Source of the DNA: Arthrobacter sp. ISL-65
GTDB lineage: Bacteria; Actinomycetota; Actinomycetes; Actinomycetales; Micrococcaceae
DNA length: 64,000 bases
Assembly (NCBI RefSeq): GCF_018613795.1
Contig: NZ_JAGGPN010000015.1
Coordinates: forward strand, 62,001 to 126,000
Direction: 5' to 3'
The position numbers and the translations under genes are program-made. Positions 1 through 57,339 of the stretch are shown here, piece after piece; within the stretch, counting starts at the first letter, position 1; every line of letters begins with the position of its first letter. Under the pieces are notes generated by a model that saw only the letters and a program-made list of their open reading frames with translations, did not search any database and was not told the DNA's origin.

Positions 1-383
1 TCCTGGATGTTCTTGCCGAACCAGGGGTAGACCGGGGCCGTGTTGCCGCGGCCCAGCACCAGGTCCACGCGGCCGCCGGCGAGGTGCTGCAGCATGGCGA
101 AGTCCTCGGCGATCTTGACCGGATCGTTCGTAGTGATCAGCGTGGTGGCTGTGGACAGCGTGATGCGCTCGGTCTGGGCAGCGATGTACCCGAGCGTGGT
201 GGTGGGGGAGGAGGAGAAGAACGGCCGGTTGTGGTGCTCACCGATGGCGTAGACGTCCATGCCGATTTCTTCGACCTTCTTGGCGATCGCCACTGATGCC
301 TTGATGCGCTCGTGCTCGGTGGGGGTCCGGCCCGTGGTGGGGTCTTGGGTGATGTCGCTGACGCTGAATACGCCGATCTGCAT
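1..383 (-). CDS. LLM-class flavin-dependent oxidoreductase (luciferase-like), N-terminal part
   Basis: The first 127 residues of a luciferase-like monooxygenase are encoded; the rest lies beyond the left edge. The protein begins MQIGVFSVSDITQDP and contains GEHHNRPFF and the segment LSTATTLITTNDPVKIAEDFAML, typical of the TIM-barrel F420/FMN-dependent LLM family. Such enzymes use reduced flavin to oxidise small organic substrates in the cytoplasm; the substrate cannot be read from this fragment. The ATG at 383 is preceded on the minus strand by a GGAAGG ribosome site. A perfect inverted repeat lies about 60 bp upstream and may be an operator. Family assignment is firm; function is not. Confidence 0.9.
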   Translation of the reverse strand, partial: MQIGVFSVSDITQDPTTGRTPTEHERIKASVAIAKKVEEIGMDVYAIGEHHNRPFFSSSPTTTLGYIAAQTERITLSTATTLITTNDPVKIAEDFAMLQHLAGGRVDLVLGRGNTAPVYPWFGKNIQ

Positions 384-497: not shown

Positions 498-563
498 CCC
501 AACTGAGTAGCACTTCAGGGCGTTCCCAGCGCTGGGAACGCCTTTTGCTGCTACTCAGATGGG
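498..563. repeat. 66-bp palindromic repeat, copy A
   Basis: This is a nearly perfect 66-bp palindrome centred at 530/531. The core GGCGTTCCCAGC is followed by its complement GCTGGGAACGCC, and the outer arms CCCA-CTGAGTAGCA and TGCTACTCAG-TGGG pair in exact register; the main mismatches are at 513-516. Related copies occur at 1573-1633 and 49722-49782. It overlaps the 3' end of the neighbouring minus-strand gene, whose stop codon (551-553) is inside the right arm. It could fold as a hairpin terminator, but there is no U-run. Confidence 0.85.
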
Positions 564-1504
564 GACCAGCCACGCGCCAGAAGCACCAAGCGAACCTTGC
601 GGACGGCAGCCCGCGCGTCGTTCTCCATGTGGTTCTTGCCGATCCGCAGCAGGATCCAGTCCGCGGCGGCAAAATCCTCGTCGCGGCGGATGTCCCTCAG
701 CACCTGTGCCGAATCCGAATGGCCCTCTCCGTCGTATTCCACGGCCACACGGAACTCGGGATAGGAAAGATCGGGTTGGCGCACGGCGCCGCCGCCCAAC
801 GCCACCGGCACGTTGACGTCGGCTTCGGGAAGGCCGCGGCGGGCGAGGGCAAGCCGGAGCCGTGTTTCGGGGGCAGAATCCGCGCCGACACGCGCCTGTT
901 CAAGAGCCAGGCGGGCCTTCCGGATTCCGGGCGTTCCCTTGTGCCGGTCCAGCATGTCGGCGAGTTCGTCCCGCGTGGCATGGGCCGCGGACCTCCCCTC
1001 GAACTCGGGGCGGGGATGCCGCAGGAGATGGTCAGCCACCACCGTCAGCTCATCGACACTCATCCGCCGGGCGATGTCCAGCCAGGTCCGGGTCCTGCTG
1101 GTGACGAACACCCCATTAAGGCCCACGATCTCGTCAGGAAAGAACTGCCCGCGGTGCCCCACCACACCCCGCCGCCGGGCGATGGCAACCGCATCCGGGC
1201 GGGAAAGGTGGATGCCCGGGAGGTCAGCGCCAGGCAGGAAGCCGGGAAACTCCCACAGCAGGAATGCCGTTGCGTGCGATGCTGCCGAAAGGCCGGTGAC
1301 GAGTGTGTGGGGCCTGGCCAGCTGCGCAAGCTGCTGCGTGCACTCCGGGCGGGTACCGGCGTCGTAAGGTGTCCGGATGCCCCGGCTGGGGGTCCGGAGG
1401 CCGCCGATCTTCAAGCGGTCCCGGGCAACTCCGGCGTTCAGTGCTTCATCCACGGTGAAGGGAACGTCCGACAGATGGTCCGGCAATGGGCTCGGATACT
1501 TCAT
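551..1504 (-). CDS. AbiEi-like / DUF559 domain protein (PD-(D/E)XK nuclease-fold)
   Basis: This 317-aa protein has an N-terminal part like the AbiEi antitoxin winged-helix family common in actinobacteria. Its C-terminal part resembles DUF559/Vsr-type restriction-fold proteins: APETRLRLALARRGLPEADV, then PDLSYPEFRVAVEYDGEGH and RRDEDFAAADWILLRI. The acidic residues in PDLSYPEFRVAVEYDG would be the nuclease active-site candidates. I chose the ATG at 1504 (MKYPSPLPDHL), where similarity begins; an in-frame ATG at 1567 would add 21 residues without family character. No partner toxin is adjacent. The gene lies between two copies of the palindromic repeat, and its last codons and stop are inside copy A. 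Cellular function is unknown; similar genes are usually annotated as hypothetical. Confidence 0.75.
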   Translation of the reverse strand: MKYPSPLPDHLSDVPFTVDEALNAGVARDRLKIGGLRTPSRGIRTPYDAGTRPECTQQLAQLARPHTLVTGLSAASHATAFLLWEFPGFLPGADLPGIHLSRPDAVAIARRRGVVGHRGQFFPDEIVGLNGVFVTSRTRTWLDIARRMSVDELTVVADHLLRHPRPEFEGRSAAHATRDELADMLDRHKGTPGIRKARLALEQARVGADSAPETRLRLALARRGLPEADVNVPVALGGGAVRQPDLSYPEFRVAVEYDGEGHSDSAQVLRDIRRDEDFAAADWILLRIGKNHMENDARAAVRKVRLVLLARGWSPSE

Positions 1505-1661: not shown

Positions 1662-4600
1662 TTATTCGGGGGAGCCGGGGGCGGCGCGGCGTCCGCTGAG
1701 CTTGGGAACCATGCCGGTGGTCCAGTCGGCGAACTCGGCATCGACGTCGTCATCGGCGGGGGAGAAGCCGGGGCGCTGCTTGAGCTGGCGCTTGAGCTCC
1801 TTTTTCTCCTTCCGCCCCTCTACCAGCCGGTACAGCACGGGGACGAGCACCAGCGTGAGCGCGGTGGAGGACACCAGGCCGCCGATCACCACGATGGCCA
1901 ACGGCTGCGAAATGAACCCGCCGCCGCCCGTCATGCCCAGGGCCATGGGGGTCAGCGCGAAGACCGTGGCCAGCGCGGTCATCAGGATGGGGCGGAGCCG
2001 CTGCCGGGCGCCGTGGGTGATGGCGTCGGCAACACTCATCCCCGGATTGCCGCCACGCGGGTTCCGGTACTGGTTGATCAGGTCGATCAACACAATCGCG
2101 TTCGTCACCACGATGCCCACGAGCATCAGCATGCCGATCAGCGACGGCAGCCCCAGCGGCACCCGCGCGACGAGGAGCAGGGCAACCGCTCCGGTGGCGG
2201 CGAAAGGCACCGAAACGAGGAGGATCAGCGGCTGCACCAGCGACTTGAACGTCGCCACCATGATCACGTAGACGATGGCGATGGCGGCCAGCAGCGCGAG
2301 GCCGAGCTGCCGGAATGATTCTGCCTGCTGGGTGGTGGCGCCGCCGATCTCCGCGGTCACCCCGGCGGGAAGGTCCACGGCCTTGAGGCGCTGCTGCACC
2401 TCCGCGCTGACGGCGCCCAGGTTGGATCCCGACGGCGTGACGGACACCTTCGCTGTCCGCTGGCCGTTGCTGGAGGTGATGGAGATGGGAATGTCGACCT
2501 GTTCGACGGCGGCAATCTGGCTAAGCGGGATGGCCCCGGACGCGGTGGGGAGCGGGATGTTGCGGACGGCGCCGATGCTGGTGAAGCGTTTTCCTTCGCC
2601 GATCTGGACGGGGAAGTCGTCCGTGTCGATGCGCACGGTGCCTGCGGGGACGGGGCTGATGGTGGAGGCGAGGACGCCCGCAACCTGCTCTTCGGTCAGG
2701 CCGGCGGCAACGGCCTTGGCCCGGTCAACCTTCACCTGCACCACGGGCTGGCTGGCAGCCAGGTTGGTGGTCACCTCGCTGCTTCCGGGAACTCCGGCCA
2801 TCGCCTTGACCATGGCGTCGCTGGCCTTCCCCAGATCTTCGGAGGTGGCCGCCTTCAGGGTGATGTCCACGGTGGAGGACGTTCCGAAGCCCCCCTGCTG
2901 GGAACCGACGGAGATCTTGCCGGCAGCACCTGCAGCCGCAAGCAGGCTGCGGACTGCGTCCTGCAGCCTGCCCTGGTTCGCTTTTTCGTCGGTGACCACC
3001 GTGAACGAGGAGTTGGACGCACCCGAGGACGTTAGCGCGGTGAAGCCCGCCTGCGCATTGCCGGAGGTCACTTGGACGTCCTTGATCCCGTCGATGCCAA
3101 GGAGCACGTCCTCGACCTTCCGGGCCGCGGCGCTGGTGTCTTCGAGGCTCGTGCCGGCGGGCAGTTCCTGCTTGACCGTCATGCTGTTCTCCCCGGAGCG
3201 TCCCAGCAGGTCGGTGGCGAGCAGCGGCGTCATTGCAGCGGTCCCGCCGAGGACCAGGACCGCGGCGATCAGGGTGAGCACGGGGTGCTTCTGGGTCTTG
3301 TTCAGGACGGGAACGTAGCCGCGCTGCAGGAGGCTGCGCTGTTCGGCCTCGTGTGCCTGCGCCTGGACTTCCCGGGCGGAGCGGGGGGCGTCTCCGTTGG
3401 CGGGACTCTTCAGGAACCAGTACGCGAGCACGGGAACGATGGTCAGGGACACCAGGAGCGAGGAGAGCAGCGCAATGGTAACCGTCAGGGCGAACGGACG
3501 GAACAGTTCGCCCGTCAGTTCGCCGACAAAGGCGATCGGGAGGAAGACGGCCACTGTCGTCAGCGTGGAGGCGGTGATGGCGCCGGCCACCTCACGGATG
3601 GAGGTGAGGATCGCGGTGAGCTTGGCTTCGCCGTAGCTCAGGTGCCGCTTGATGTTCTCGATCACCACGATCGAGTCATCCACGACCCGGCCGATGGCGA
3701 TGGTCAGCGCGCCGAGCGTGAGGATGTTCAGCGAATACCCTGTGCCGGACAGGCCGATGAAGGTGATCAGCAGAGACAGCGGAATGGAGACGGCGGTGAC
3801 CAGGGTGGAGCGGACGGACATGAGGAAGACGAGGATGACGGCCACCGCGAAACCGAGGCCCAGGAGGCCTTCCGTGGTGAGGTCCTTGATGGACTTCTCG
3901 ATAAACGGTGCCTGGTCGAAGACGGGGGTGAACTTGGCATTCGAGCCAAGCTCCGCCTCGAGCTGTGGCAGTAAATCCTTCACCGCGTGCGAGATCGCCA
4001 CGGTGTCGCCCTCGGGTTTCTTCGTCACGGAAATGGCCAGCGTTTCGAGACCATTCGTCCGGGTGATGGATGTGCGCGCGTCATCCTTGATGCTGACGTT
4101 GGCCACAGAACCGATGGTGGTGCCGGCTTTGGCCCCGCTGAGCGGCAGGGACTTCACCGCGGCCACCGAGTCGACCGGGCTGCCGATCTGCAGAGAGAGG
4201 CTTTGACCCTTCTCCTCAATCGTGCCTGCCGGAACAAGATCGCCGTTGTTGGTCAGGGCATTCCGGACCGACTGGATGCTGGCACCGCCGGCGGCCATGC
4301 TGGCCGCGTTCGGCTGGATCAGGATGTGCCGGTTGGCGCCGCCCGTCACGTCGGCGCCTCGGACGCCGTCGAGCTTCTGCAGCCTCGGTACCGACAGCCG
4401 CTGAAGGTCCGTATTCAGCTCGCTCAGCGGCTTGTCGGAGGAGACGGCGAGGAAGACGATGGGGAAGTCGCTGATGCTGCCGGCGATGGCCTGGGGCTGG
4501 ACGTCGTCCGGCAGCGTGCGCTTCGCGTTGGAAATTGCCCGGTCGATCTGGTTCCGGGCCCGGTCCAGGTTGGAACCGTAGGTGAACACCAGGCTGATCT

Positions 4601-4871
4601 GCGAGACGCCGTTGCGGGAGTTGGACGACGTCGACTCCAGGCCTTCGACGCCGTTCAGCGCCGTCTCCAGCGGCCGGCTGACCTGCTTGTCCACCACCTC
4701 GGGGGACGCCCCAGGCATCGACGTGATCACCGTGATCCGCGGGAACTCAACCGAGGGGATGAGTTCCTGCTTCAGCGAGGACATGGTGATCACGCCGAAC
4801 ACCGAGGCGAAGATGGTGATCAGCGCGATGAGCGCGCGGTTCCCGAGGGATAGTTGGGCCAGCCGGAACAT
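1662..4871 (-). CDS. RND family efflux transporter permease (HAE1/AcrB/SwrC-like)
   Basis: This 1069-aa integral membrane protein belongs to the HAE1 branch of the resistance-nodulation-division superfamily. Residue 1 opens MFRLAQLSLGNRALIALITI, the first membrane helix, followed by a large porter loop containing PGASPEVVDKQVSRPLE. The hallmark helix-4 motif is visible near residues 389-401 (GRVVDDSIVVIEN), and the second half repeats the layout. It should use the proton gradient to expel amphiphiles or drugs. No membrane-fusion protein or outer-membrane channel is adjacent, as expected for a Gram-positive SwrC-like pump working alone. Mqo lies 67 bp upstream in the same direction, so read-through is possible. 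The family is certain; the substrate is unknown. Confidence 0.93.
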   Translation of the reverse strand: MFRLAQLSLGNRALIALITIFASVFGVITMSSLKQELIPSVEFPRITVITSMPGASPEVVDKQVSRPLETALNGVEGLESTSSNSRNGVSQISLVFTYGSNLDRARNQIDRAISNAKRTLPDDVQPQAIAGSISDFPIVFLAVSSDKPLSELNTDLQRLSVPRLQKLDGVRGADVTGGANRHILIQPNAASMAAGGASIQSVRNALTNNGDLVPAGTIEEKGQSLSLQIGSPVDSVAAVKSLPLSGAKAGTTIGSVANVSIKDDARTSITRTNGLETLAISVTKKPEGDTVAISHAVKDLLPQLEAELGSNAKFTPVFDQAPFIEKSIKDLTTEGLLGLGFAVAVILVFLMSVRSTLVTAVSIPLSLLITFIGLSGTGYSLNILTLGALTIAIGRVVDDSIVVIENIKRHLSYGEAKLTAILTSIREVAGAITASTLTTVAVFLPIAFVGELTGELFRPFALTVTIALLSSLLVSLTIVPVLAYWFLKSPANGDAPRSAREVQAQAHEAEQRSLLQRGYVPVLNKTQKHPVLTLIAAVLVLGGTAAMTPLLATDLLGRSGENSMTVKQELPAGTSLEDTSAAARKVEDVLLGIDGIKDVQVTSGNAQAGFTALTSSGASNSSFTVVTDEKANQGRLQDAVRSLLAAAGAAGKISVGSQQGGFGTSSTVDITLKAATSEDLGKASDAMVKAMAGVPGSSEVTTNLAASQPVVQVKVDRAKAVAAGLTEEQVAGVLASTISPVPAGTVRIDTDDFPVQIGEGKRFTSIGAVRNIPLPTASGAIPLSQIAAVEQVDIPISITSSNGQRTAKVSVTPSGSNLGAVSAEVQQRLKAVDLPAGVTAEIGGATTQQAESFRQLGLALLAAIAIVYVIMVATFKSLVQPLILLVSVPFAATGAVALLLVARVPLGLPSLIGMLMLVGIVVTNAIVLIDLINQYRNPRGGNPGMSVADAITHGARQRLRPILMTALATVFALTPMALGMTGGGGFISQPLAIVVIGGLVSSTALTLVLVPVLYRLVEGRKEKKELKRQLKQRPGFSPADDDVDAEFADWTTGMVPKLSGRRAAPGSPE

Positions 4872-17862: not shown

Positions 17863-17900
17863 CCGAAACCCCTGCGCCCCACGGGGCGCAGGGGTTTCGG
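17863..17900. terminator. Bidirectional terminator hairpin
   Basis: CCGAAACCCCTGCGCC and GGCGCAGGGGTTTCGG form a 16-bp stem between the convergent genes ending at 17825 and 17905. Confidence 0.85.
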
Positions 17901-47978: not shown

Positions 47979-49625
47979 TTAAGGCGAGGGGCCCGGCCGA
48001 TCCGCTTCACTGGTTCCGGGCCATCCAGATCCGGGTAGGGGCGGCGCCGTGGAGCGGTAGGTGTGGCCGGTGGGCGTGGTGAGTTCGATGGTGTGCCGTG
48101 GACCCGGTCTGGGTCGGGCTTTCCAGCCGGGGAGTTCTTTGGTGTGGTTGCAGGCTTCGCACAGTCCGGCGCCGTTGGCGAGGCTGGTGGTTCCGCCGTC
48201 GTGCCAGGGGATGATGTGGTCGTGGTGGCGGATTGGGGCGTCGCAGTAGGGGGTGCGGCAGGTGTCGTCGCGGATGTGGATGAAGCGGCGCAGCGGTGCC
48301 GGGAAGAGCCGTCTTCGCGTGTCCATCGCGACGAGGTCCCCGGTCCCGGGGGCGGTGTAGAGGCGCCGGATCCAGGTCTTCAGCTCCTTCACGGCGGTTG
48401 AATCGACTTCGCCGGGCTGGCCGCGATCCGGCCGGCCCGGATGCTGGAACTGGGCGGAATGTTGTCCCTGCGTGATGAGATCGCGTGCCCAGTCTGCGGG
48501 GACGATGCCGTAGCCGGGTATCCGGGCGGGTTCGGTGTCGCCTTGGAGGAGGGTGCGGTCGGTCATGACGAGGTTGAGCTCGATGCCGGTGATGCCGCCG
48601 GGGGTGCCGGTGGTCCACTCGACCAGGGTGTCGGCCTTGATCTGGTCGCGGGAGCGCGGGTCCCCGGCGGCACGGAGGGAATCGGCCTGCCGGGTCAGCG
48701 CCGCGGACACGGCGACGCCCTGCTGGACGGGCAGCAGTGCCGTCAGATACGTCATGCAGTCCGGCGCCGGGCGCAGGCTCACCCTCCGTTCCGACGCGGC
48801 ATGGCTGGCCCGCTGGGCGACGGAGCGGGGATCCCGCCGGATGGCGGCCGCCCGGACCGCTGCCACCACGGTGCGGGTCCCGGCGCCAACGAACGTTCCG
48901 GTGTCGGCGGCGAGCTCCGCATCGACGGCGTACCGGTCCTCGACGGTCAAACAGGCGGTTTCTTTCGCCAGGTACATGACGCGCTCTTCGTTGAGGTGTC
49001 CGGTGTCCAGCGCGGTCAAAGTGTGGGGCATCTCCATGAGCGCCTTGGCTGTTCCGAGCAGCCGGCCGCCCCGGGTTGGGGACTCGCCCCGGGCCAGCGC
49101 GATCTGCTCAGCCGCGCCCGTGCCCCTGTCTTTCCCGCGGTCCTTGCCCAGGTTCTCCGCGGCCAGTGGCTCCCGGTCGGTGGATTCCTGCCGGAGCCGG
49201 GCCTCGAAGGTCACGGAAAGCCGCGCCTGTTGCCAGGCGGCCCAGCTCTTGAAGTTCTCGTAGCCACGTATCTGGTCGATCAGCCCGGCAGCGTCGGCGC
49301 TAAGGTCGGCCGTCAGAAGCGCCATTGCCGTAGCGACCCGGTCCTTCGCCGAACCCCGCCACGCCGCACCAGCGCTGGAGGCAGCGCCCTCGGCGAACAG
49401 TACGTCGGCAAACATGGCCTCGGGAAAGGGGTCCACTGGAAACGTTGCCGGATACGCGGCGTCGGGGTCATCGTCGTAGGGCGCGGCGTCGGCAATCCCG
49501 TTGTCGGGGAACGCATCGAAGGGGAAACCGGCACCGTGAGAATCGGCGTCGCGAAACGCAGCAGCGTACGGGGCGGCGCCATGCGGCGCCACTGCTGTCG
49601 GTGCTGAATTTCCAATGCCTTCCAT
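47979..49625 (-). CDS. HNH endonuclease with DUF222 (13E12 repeat family-like)
   Basis: This 548-aa protein has a helical N-terminal DUF222-type region ([63 protein letters not shown]). A C-terminal HNH nuclease domain reads [42 protein letters not shown], with paired cysteines for zinc and the catalytic HDH. Such genes are multicopy in actinobacterial chromosomes and resemble selfish or mycobacterial 13E12 repeat proteins. The ATG at 49625 is tentative because no good ribosome site is seen. A palindromic repeat (copy C) lies just upstream. Confidence 0.88.
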
Positions 49626-49721
49626 GGACACAGTCTGCCAAGGGGGACCGACATTTAAGGGCTGATCCGACACCAGATATGGGCGGGATCTTGAAGTTTT
49701 TTGGATCCGCATGGGAACGAA

Positions 49722-49782
49722 AACTAGGTAGCAGCTGGCGGCGTTCCCAGCCCTGGGAACCCCCTGATCTGCTACTGAGTTG
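49722..49782. repeat. Palindromic repeat, copy C
   Basis: This is the third copy of the repeat at 498-563 and 1573-1633. GCGTTCCCAGC and CTGGGAACC form the core, and AACTAGGTAGCAG and CTGCTACTGAGTT the outer arms. It sits between the HNH gene (5' side) and the IclR-type gene. Confidence 0.8.
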
Positions 49783-49813
49783 GGCGCACTGCCAGTTTGG
49801 GAAACAGGTGTAG

Positions 49814-57210: not shown

Positions 57211-57339
57211 CACCGGCACCCTAACCTCGCTCCGCTTCGGCCAGGGAACCCTGCCGGCGTGGGCCCAGCACCGGCACCCTAACCTCGCTCCGCTTCGGCC
57301 AGGGAACCCTGCCGGCGTGGGCCCAGCACCGGCACCCTA
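57211..57339. repeat. 58-bp tandem repeat, 2.2 copies
   Basis: A 58-bp unit beginning CACCGGCACCCTAACCTCGC starts at 57211 and 57269, and a 13-bp remnant starts at 57327. The copies appear identical. The remnant contains the stop codon (57337-57339) of the convergent DUF3515 gene, so the unit probably derives from the end of that gene. Each full unit holds an AGGG-AA-CCCT hairpin that may terminate transcription. Confidence 0.85.

Follow-up and report, generated by a model that had tools for sequence, protein, structure and literature searches.

Within the 64-kb stretch of DNA analysed here (‘the window’; bases 62001–126000 of contig 7 in a 5.26-Mb draft genome) we see a compact cassette with the order palindrome, DnaA box, nuclease gene, second palindrome; the encoded protein joining an AbiEi-like N-terminal half to a Vsr-type nuclease domain, both folds being predicted. 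The nuclease gene and its palindromes suggest a type of spreading repeat system that had not been recognised before, for which our preferred and reasonably probable reading is that a palindrome-reading nuclease spreads palindromes by a logic like that of REP elements and their RAYT enzymes. The features concerned, in window coordinates, are:

1–383, minus strand: gene for an LLM-class flavin oxidoreductase (5′ portion), bordering the site of cassette insertion on one side
498–563, no strand: palindrome A, stop-codon side of the cassette, holding the TAG stop of the nuclease gene
551–1504, minus strand: nuclease gene, AbiEi-like N-terminal half plus Vsr-type (DUF559/MTES_1575) domain
1542–1550, no strand: DnaA box TTATCCACA, 16 bp from palindrome B
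1567–1632, no strand: palindrome B, start-codon side of the cassette
1662–4871, minus strand: RND/AcrB-type transporter gene, the other border of the insertion site
47979–49712, minus strand: HNH endonuclease gene beside palindrome C, with a palindrome on one side only
49719–49784, no strand: palindrome C, a lone copy with an IclR-type gene ending (3′) on one side of it and the HNH gene beginning (5′) on the other

All three copies of the repeat picked out by the initial annotation are present, and the full unit is a palindrome of 66 bp; the coordinates it gave for copy A (498–563) stand, those for B (1573–1633) and C (49722–49782) become 1567–1632 and 49719–49784, and its remark that copy A supplies the stop codon of the nuclease gene is borne out. 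A scan for inverted repeats (31-nt arms, at least 22 pairs) returns five in the window, A, B and C among them, and the same scan, with the same arms and pairing, returns none in one Markov-shuffled window. Folded as single-stranded DNA, the three copies beat their own shuffles (z of −8.3, −5.1 and −3.7 for A, B and C; 0 of 200 shuffles equal for each copy), and a covariance model built on copies from the same genome (R2) matches 47 places across the 5.26 Mb (94 rows on the two strands), of which 44 are full-length, two are cut at contig ends and one is a weak partial match. The suggestion that three copies in 64 kb might be chance is ruled out by the shuffled-window scan, the folding scores and these 47 matches.

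When 37 of the genome copies are aligned, 85% of cells are paired across 32 pairs, and 19 pairs have changed on both sides—far fewer when the partners are slid against each other. The ends of the palindrome typically read CCCAAST...GCAG plus the mirror image, and the inner arms vary by subtype, those of this genome being mainly of the GGGCGTTCCC and GTTGTTGTCGTTTT types. Within the genus, R2 matches 36 of the 37 genomes scanned; in other families of the order it matches 0 of 22. Three contig ends (G000 C1, C21 and C69) lie inside palindromes, so that the hairpins seem to break draft assembly, making copy number a lower bound.

The bracketing of a DUF559 nuclease-fold gene by A and B, as initially annotated, is exact and encloses a single gene; it is also an arrangement that recurs across loci. 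The reading frame of this gene is open upstream to 1567, with conservation favouring the ATG at 1504 as the start. A second such gene in the same genome, 61% identical, is likewise bracketed, by palindromes of another subtype, and across 121 genomes of the genus the homologues of 60–87% identity form a clade separate from more distant paralogues. Thirty loci of this clade were fetched, 27 having both palindromes and three having one. At 71 homologous loci from named genomes (mostly Arthrobacter, Pseudarthrobacter and Paenarthrobacter; a set overlapping in genomes with the 30) palindromes are found on both sides at 57, on one side at 13 and on neither at one. The stop side is broken in all three one-sided loci of the smaller set and in four of the eight viewed among the 13; here the palindrome starts and then gives way to other sequence, the break falling about 90–120 bp from a contig end (three plus four loci). 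At L128/L157, L134/L175, L180 and L141/L185 this looks as if an insertion sequence had landed there. The stop side of L207 holds an imperfect palindrome under the cut-off and that of L216 a remnant, with no trace in the 110 bp viewed at L165 and L202.

The DnaA box is an equally regular component of the cassette. TTATCCACA is the sole exact box in the 64-kb window, where shuffles expect 0.03, and an exact box lies between the start-side palindrome and the gene, in constant orientation, at 68 of the 71 loci, its distance from the palindrome, measurable at 64 loci, being 13–17 bp at 63 of them. Among lone copies, 0 of 34 have such a box within 100 bp. One locus from a record titled Sporosarcina beigongshangi (L214; a distant genus, and a label that may be wrong) encodes a nuclease 57% identical to that of the window and has the DnaA box, with no palindromes by the criterion used.

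Pfam gives the window protein weak matches to MTES_1575 and DUF559, both below cut-off; MTES_1575 is named a novel Vsr-REase in the available text of PMC3710099. PADLOC assigns the N-terminal half to AbiEi in five of five members (AbiEi profile E 3.5e-9). An AlphaFold2 model of the window protein (pLDDT 80.7, pTM 0.76) places the C-terminus closest to the homing endonuclease I-Bth0305I (PDB: 3r3p; Z 12.7 over 95 residues, rmsd 2.6), followed by 3hrl (Z 11.6) and Vsr itself (1cw0; Z 10.1), and aligns residues 23–226 with AbiEi of Streptococcus agalactiae (6y8q_A; Z 10.8, rmsd 5.4). Foldseek alone ranks I-Bth0305I first, with no match at E 0.001 or better. No Y1_Tnp match is seen by Pfam at E 0.1 among six members. 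A comparison of 57 of the 71 loci (those omitted having a frame that seems interrupted under an over-strict test) shows no variation at E234, D266, E277, G280, H283, D292 and W304, and the E, D, H and D among these residues probably correspond to the EDxHD motif; from residue 30 onward the frame is open in 67 of the 71. Against two relatives the window nuclease has dN/dS values of 0.19 and 0.15.

A viral or plasmid vehicle for the nuclease was considered and rejected: one exact core pattern has 0 matches in viral_contigs, and protein matches comprise one phage record, at 36%, and six plasmid records, a single one of them above 60%. That record is the 1.35-Mb replicon of StoSoilB13, in which one flanking palindrome was found.

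Palindrome and protein vary together. In 57 cassettes the left and right palindromes agree at 21.9 of 24 inner-arm positions on average, as against 15.4 with shuffled partners (largest of 10000 partner shuffles, 16.9), with the true partner ranking first or tied in just 27 of the 57 because related cassettes resemble each other. Palindrome distance also follows protein distance (Mantel r 0.60, 0 of 5000 permutations; 46 of the 57 two-sided loci, those with seemingly interrupted frames and L212–L215 being left out). The association extends to copy number: among the matches listed, counted on both strands and with candidates capped at 88, the median is 72.5 in 20 genomes with a clade-1 nuclease (best E <1e-80, which takes in one fragment, in G027) and 15 in 17 genomes lacking one, about a fivefold difference (p 2.7e-6; the genomes are not independent, so that this p-value and the permutation tests above overstate). 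The palindromes of genomes lacking the clade-1 nuclease are probably remnants; an exception in number is G033, which has no clade-1 nuclease and 72 matches.

Lone copies, too, mostly resemble the local cassette. Their subtype was read by eye among the listed pattern matches of four genomes, in three of which the lone copies are like the cassette: all 12 copies in G134 (two of them cassette ends), every listed copy in G091 and most of the 27 in G138 are of the cassette's subtype. In the fourth, G069, most lone copies are like a second, degraded cassette and unlike the first. With both folds joined in one protein, and its gene set between 66-bp palindromes that change with the protein, the enzyme is most simply a palindrome-specific nuclease.

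The window cassette and one lone copy are each missing from the equivalent place in relatives. By flanking genes, the 71 named cassettes and the two of our genome fall into three main sites, represented by about 49, 8 and 8 genomes; at L194 the cassette seems to be inverted at the first, usual site, as recombination between its palindromes would give. Thirty loci were examined for the window site, the gene being present in four and both flanking genes lying within reach in 23, of which 19 are empty, with neither gene nor family-1 palindrome. Seven empty sites (L227, L229, L231, L233, L235, L236 and L238) hold a different hairpin whose arms resemble GATGCCCGYACC...GGTGCGGGCATC; it may be a terminator or one more dispersed palindrome. 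On contig 7 there are five palindromes, four of them common to the related region of G002; the remaining one, at contig position 49693, is absent from G002 between flanks that are 95% identical, the difference amounting to ~100 bp, and the pair fits either a gain here or a loss there. Presence/absence polymorphism, proposed initially as a check on mobility, is therefore seen both for the cassette (absent at 19 of 23 comparable loci) and for one lone copy. Two of the six palindromes in G002 have no placement in our contig, family-1 palindromes are lacking from the 140 and 120 kb of this region that were compared in two less closely related genomes, and the flanks of the named loci hold 11 lone copies, four of these being without a comparable locus.

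Within our genome, 38 copies (cassette ends included) could be placed relative to genes: 14 in convergent gaps, 20 in tandem gaps, with copy C assigned to these by hand, one in a divergent gap and three at locus edges. Divergent gaps are thus avoided (1 of 35 copies vs 25 of 109 in the background, p 0.005) and convergent ones hold a mild excess (14 of 35 vs 23 of 109, p 0.04), lone copies lying mostly at gene 3′ ends.

Alternatively, the palindromes might be operators, with the AbiEi-like protein an autoregulator that binds the start-side copy, the lone copies a regulon or terminators, and the nuclease half serving defence or repair with no movement of repeats. AbiEi antitoxins are described in the available text of PMC7319586 as binding inverted repeats in their own promoter; the N-terminal half of the nuclease matches AbiEi, and the near-constant 13–17 bp between start-side palindrome and DnaA box (63 of 64 measurable loci) and the 3′-end position of most lone copies would suit operators and terminators, respectively. 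Saying this, such an account leaves the second palindrome, over the stop codon, unexplained, and it sits poorly with how few copies occupy divergent gaps (1 of 35 vs 25 of 109), with the DnaA box being near 0 of 34 lone copies, and with a copy absent from its orthologous place between flanks of 95% identity; we consider it unlikely as a whole.

A selected role in RNA—the repeats being retained because their transcripts form hairpins that act as terminators or stabilise mRNA, with the link to the nuclease secondary—we hold to be improbable. The 3′-end position and the excess in convergent gaps (14 of 35 vs 23 of 109, p 0.04) would be expected of it, as would another terminator-like hairpin at some of the empty sites. 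Against this, G-U mismatches show no excess (14 G-U vs 26 A-C, p 0.08, in 19 tandem copies oriented by transcription, with cassette ends in and copy C out), on which ground the RNA hairpin as the selected form was rejected; downstream of the window copies there is no long stretch of T, and neither the cassette nor the change of palindromes with their nuclease is explained. Lastly, MITEs characteristically come as many short derivatives of a unit that has inverted ends, yet for an ordinary DDE insertion sequence to have these palindromes as its MITE-like ends, with the nuclease a passenger, is very improbable, and this reading was rejected, no target duplication being found (0 of 34 lone copies share at least 4 bp across their ends) and the palindromes at two-sided loci abutting the nuclease gene so as to leave no room for a transposase gene.

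Returning to the palindrome-reading nuclease, we envisage the following sequence of events. The AbiEi-like half would, most likely, read the palindrome, and the nuclease half would cut or nick DNA there, probably while replication lets the palindrome extrude as a hairpin. Through repair, copies of the palindrome, and on rare occasions of the complete cassette, would then reach further intergenic places; cutting followed by repair would be the obvious copying route, as in homing. Lone palindromes would then be non-autonomous descendants. The nuclease gene itself is mostly vertically inherited and maintained under purifying selection, and a palindrome family of its own goes with many a nuclease clade. 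The DnaA box may couple expression or activity to replication. The architecture and its recurrence, the matching palindromes, the empty sites and the conserved residues are observed, and the domain folds predicted; that the nuclease binds, cuts and mobilises the palindromes is what we infer.

Among known repeat systems, the likeness is greatest to REP/RAYT elements (REPtrons). As described in the available text of PMC3116915 and PMC3733652, these consist of many-copy extragenic palindromes and an enzyme gene flanked by palindromes of its own; inheritance is mostly vertical, distinct enzyme–repeat pairs may share a genome, and copies favour gene 3′ ends. Here too we see many-copy extragenic palindromes (47 places in one genome; 36 of the 37 scanned in the genus) and a cognate enzyme gene flanked by matching ones. 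The two systems differ in their enzyme, a RAYT being an HUH Y1 tyrosine transposase related to IS200/IS605 where ours is an AbiEi-like plus Vsr-type nuclease; in their repeat, a REP being 20–40 bp with an unpaired GTAG or CGTC tag where our unit is one symmetric 66-bp palindrome paired along its length; and in the DnaA box inside the cassette. The enzyme is thus no RAYT by that definition, and the system not a REPtron, yet it appears to work like one.

The two halves of the protein point to other relatives. I-Bth0305I, a homing endonuclease of the EDxHD/Vsr fold, resembles the predicted nuclease domain in its fold and in the invariant E, D, H and D; according to the available text of PMC3943268 it forms a dimer on a target nearly 60 bp long, close to the length of our 66-bp palindrome. 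It differs in its DNA-reading half and in that our palindromes are dispersed; moreover, unlike the gene of a homing endonuclease, the window cassette lies between two genes and neither in an intron nor inside a gene. The N-terminal half shares its predicted fold with AbiEi of the type IV toxin–antitoxin system AbiE, which binds inverted repeats (PMC7319586, available text), but is here fused to a nuclease, and no AbiEii-type (nucleotidyltransferase) toxin gene is adjacent to the window cassette, its neighbours being the RND transporter and LLM oxidoreductase genes. CGTC-tagged REPs, reported in the available text of PMC3733652 to be dispersed palindromes with no dedicated transposase, are alike in their dispersal and differ in their 20–40 bp length and in the phyla that hold them; that text contains no link between them and a Vsr-type nuclease. 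RepRanger, as presented in the available text of PMC12306157, lists Arthrobacter livingstonensis and has a palindrome maximum of 32 nt. In the accessible portion of the open-access literature we found no report linking DUF559, MTES_1575 or Vsr-type nucleases to such palindromes, and we take the system to be new because its enzyme type, 66-bp unit and DnaA box match no repeat system found there.

How REP-like palindromes spread is described as an open question in the available text of PMC3733652, with some families having no known enzyme. The cassette offers a second enzyme type, unrelated to RAYT, that carries a REP-like signature, and a possible function for part of the proteins annotated ‘DUF559’ and ‘AbiEi-like’. 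Since the enzyme–repeat pairs differ in sequence and so come with built-in specificity controls, the question is directly testable.

The signature extends beyond the clade of the window nuclease. Nineteen other-clade paralogues, chosen as a negative control, have both palindromes at 13 loci, one at two and none at four, with a DnaA box in the fetched stretch at all 19. Their outer arms differ from those of the window, being CCCATCGATTGCTCCG in clade 2 and GTTGCTCTATCAC or CCCGCGAGATGGC in others, while the clade-2 inner core (GTCGTTTTGAG-like) is similar to that of some clade-1 subtypes; clade-2 palindromes are few, with one to eight exact-pattern copies per genome in six genomes. Six further paralogues include two with both palindromes (L361 and L364) and four with none (L359, L360, L362 and L363), the box being present in five of the six.

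A model of the whole protein family (E 1e-20) matches 148 of 296 genomes of the class, in 70 of 114 genera. Other genera contributed 27 loci, with approximate gene borders: inverted repeats flank the gene on both sides in 11 and the pair is missing in 16, while control windows at the ends of the same loci have such repeats on both sides in 0 of 27. For some proteins of other clades and genera, then, the palindrome is dispensable, or it was missed. Nine of the 11 two-sided pairs are more alike than 95% of between-locus pairs, with L315 just short of this. The signature is seen in the Arthrobacter group and at loci of at least three other actinobacterial families. One of the other-genus palindromes, GTTGATCATGG...CCATGATCAAC, has 32, 46, 24, 10 and 1 copies in five genomes and 0 in a sixth, from another family, reversed-pattern controls giving 0. 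A broader proposal—that across the class Actinomycetes each clade of the AbiEi–Vsr fusion writes, spreads and co-evolves with a palindrome of its own, timed by DnaA and independent of RAYTs—we judge about evenly poised between right and wrong; if true, much of the intergenic palindrome load of Actinomycetes would gain a named enzyme.

The initial annotation had also linked the repeat to a second, unrelated nuclease family through copy C, which lies before the HNH gene. The start-side position holds: among four long paralogues of this HNH gene, three (loci including L039 and L057) have a family-1 palindrome immediately ahead of the start. The palindrome is one-sided, though, and L253 has none, so that neither bracketing nor a universal link can be claimed. 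Of the 38 copies in our genome, four are cassette ends and three lie beside an HNH gene of this type; tblastn of the 1.5–5 kb flanks finds neither protein beside the other 31, its one weak HNH match (25%, at L046) being more than 2 kb away. As first worded, an association with two nuclease families is accordingly not supported, and of the idea that a REP-like element is mobilised by such enzymes it is the tie to the DUF559-type gene that is strongly supported. The HNH association is minor, and the HNH enzyme was rejected as the main mobiliser, its palindrome being on one side only and absent at L253.

Some HNH-linked palindromes have a variant outer end, GTTTTCGTT...GGATC, which is seen at L032 as well, beside an exonuclease-type gene and a fatty-acid oxidation gene. 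The window itself contains a further long hairpin at 17881, with CCGAAACCCCTGCGCCCC arms and perhaps a terminator, and a perfect 58-bp tandem duplication at 57211–57326.
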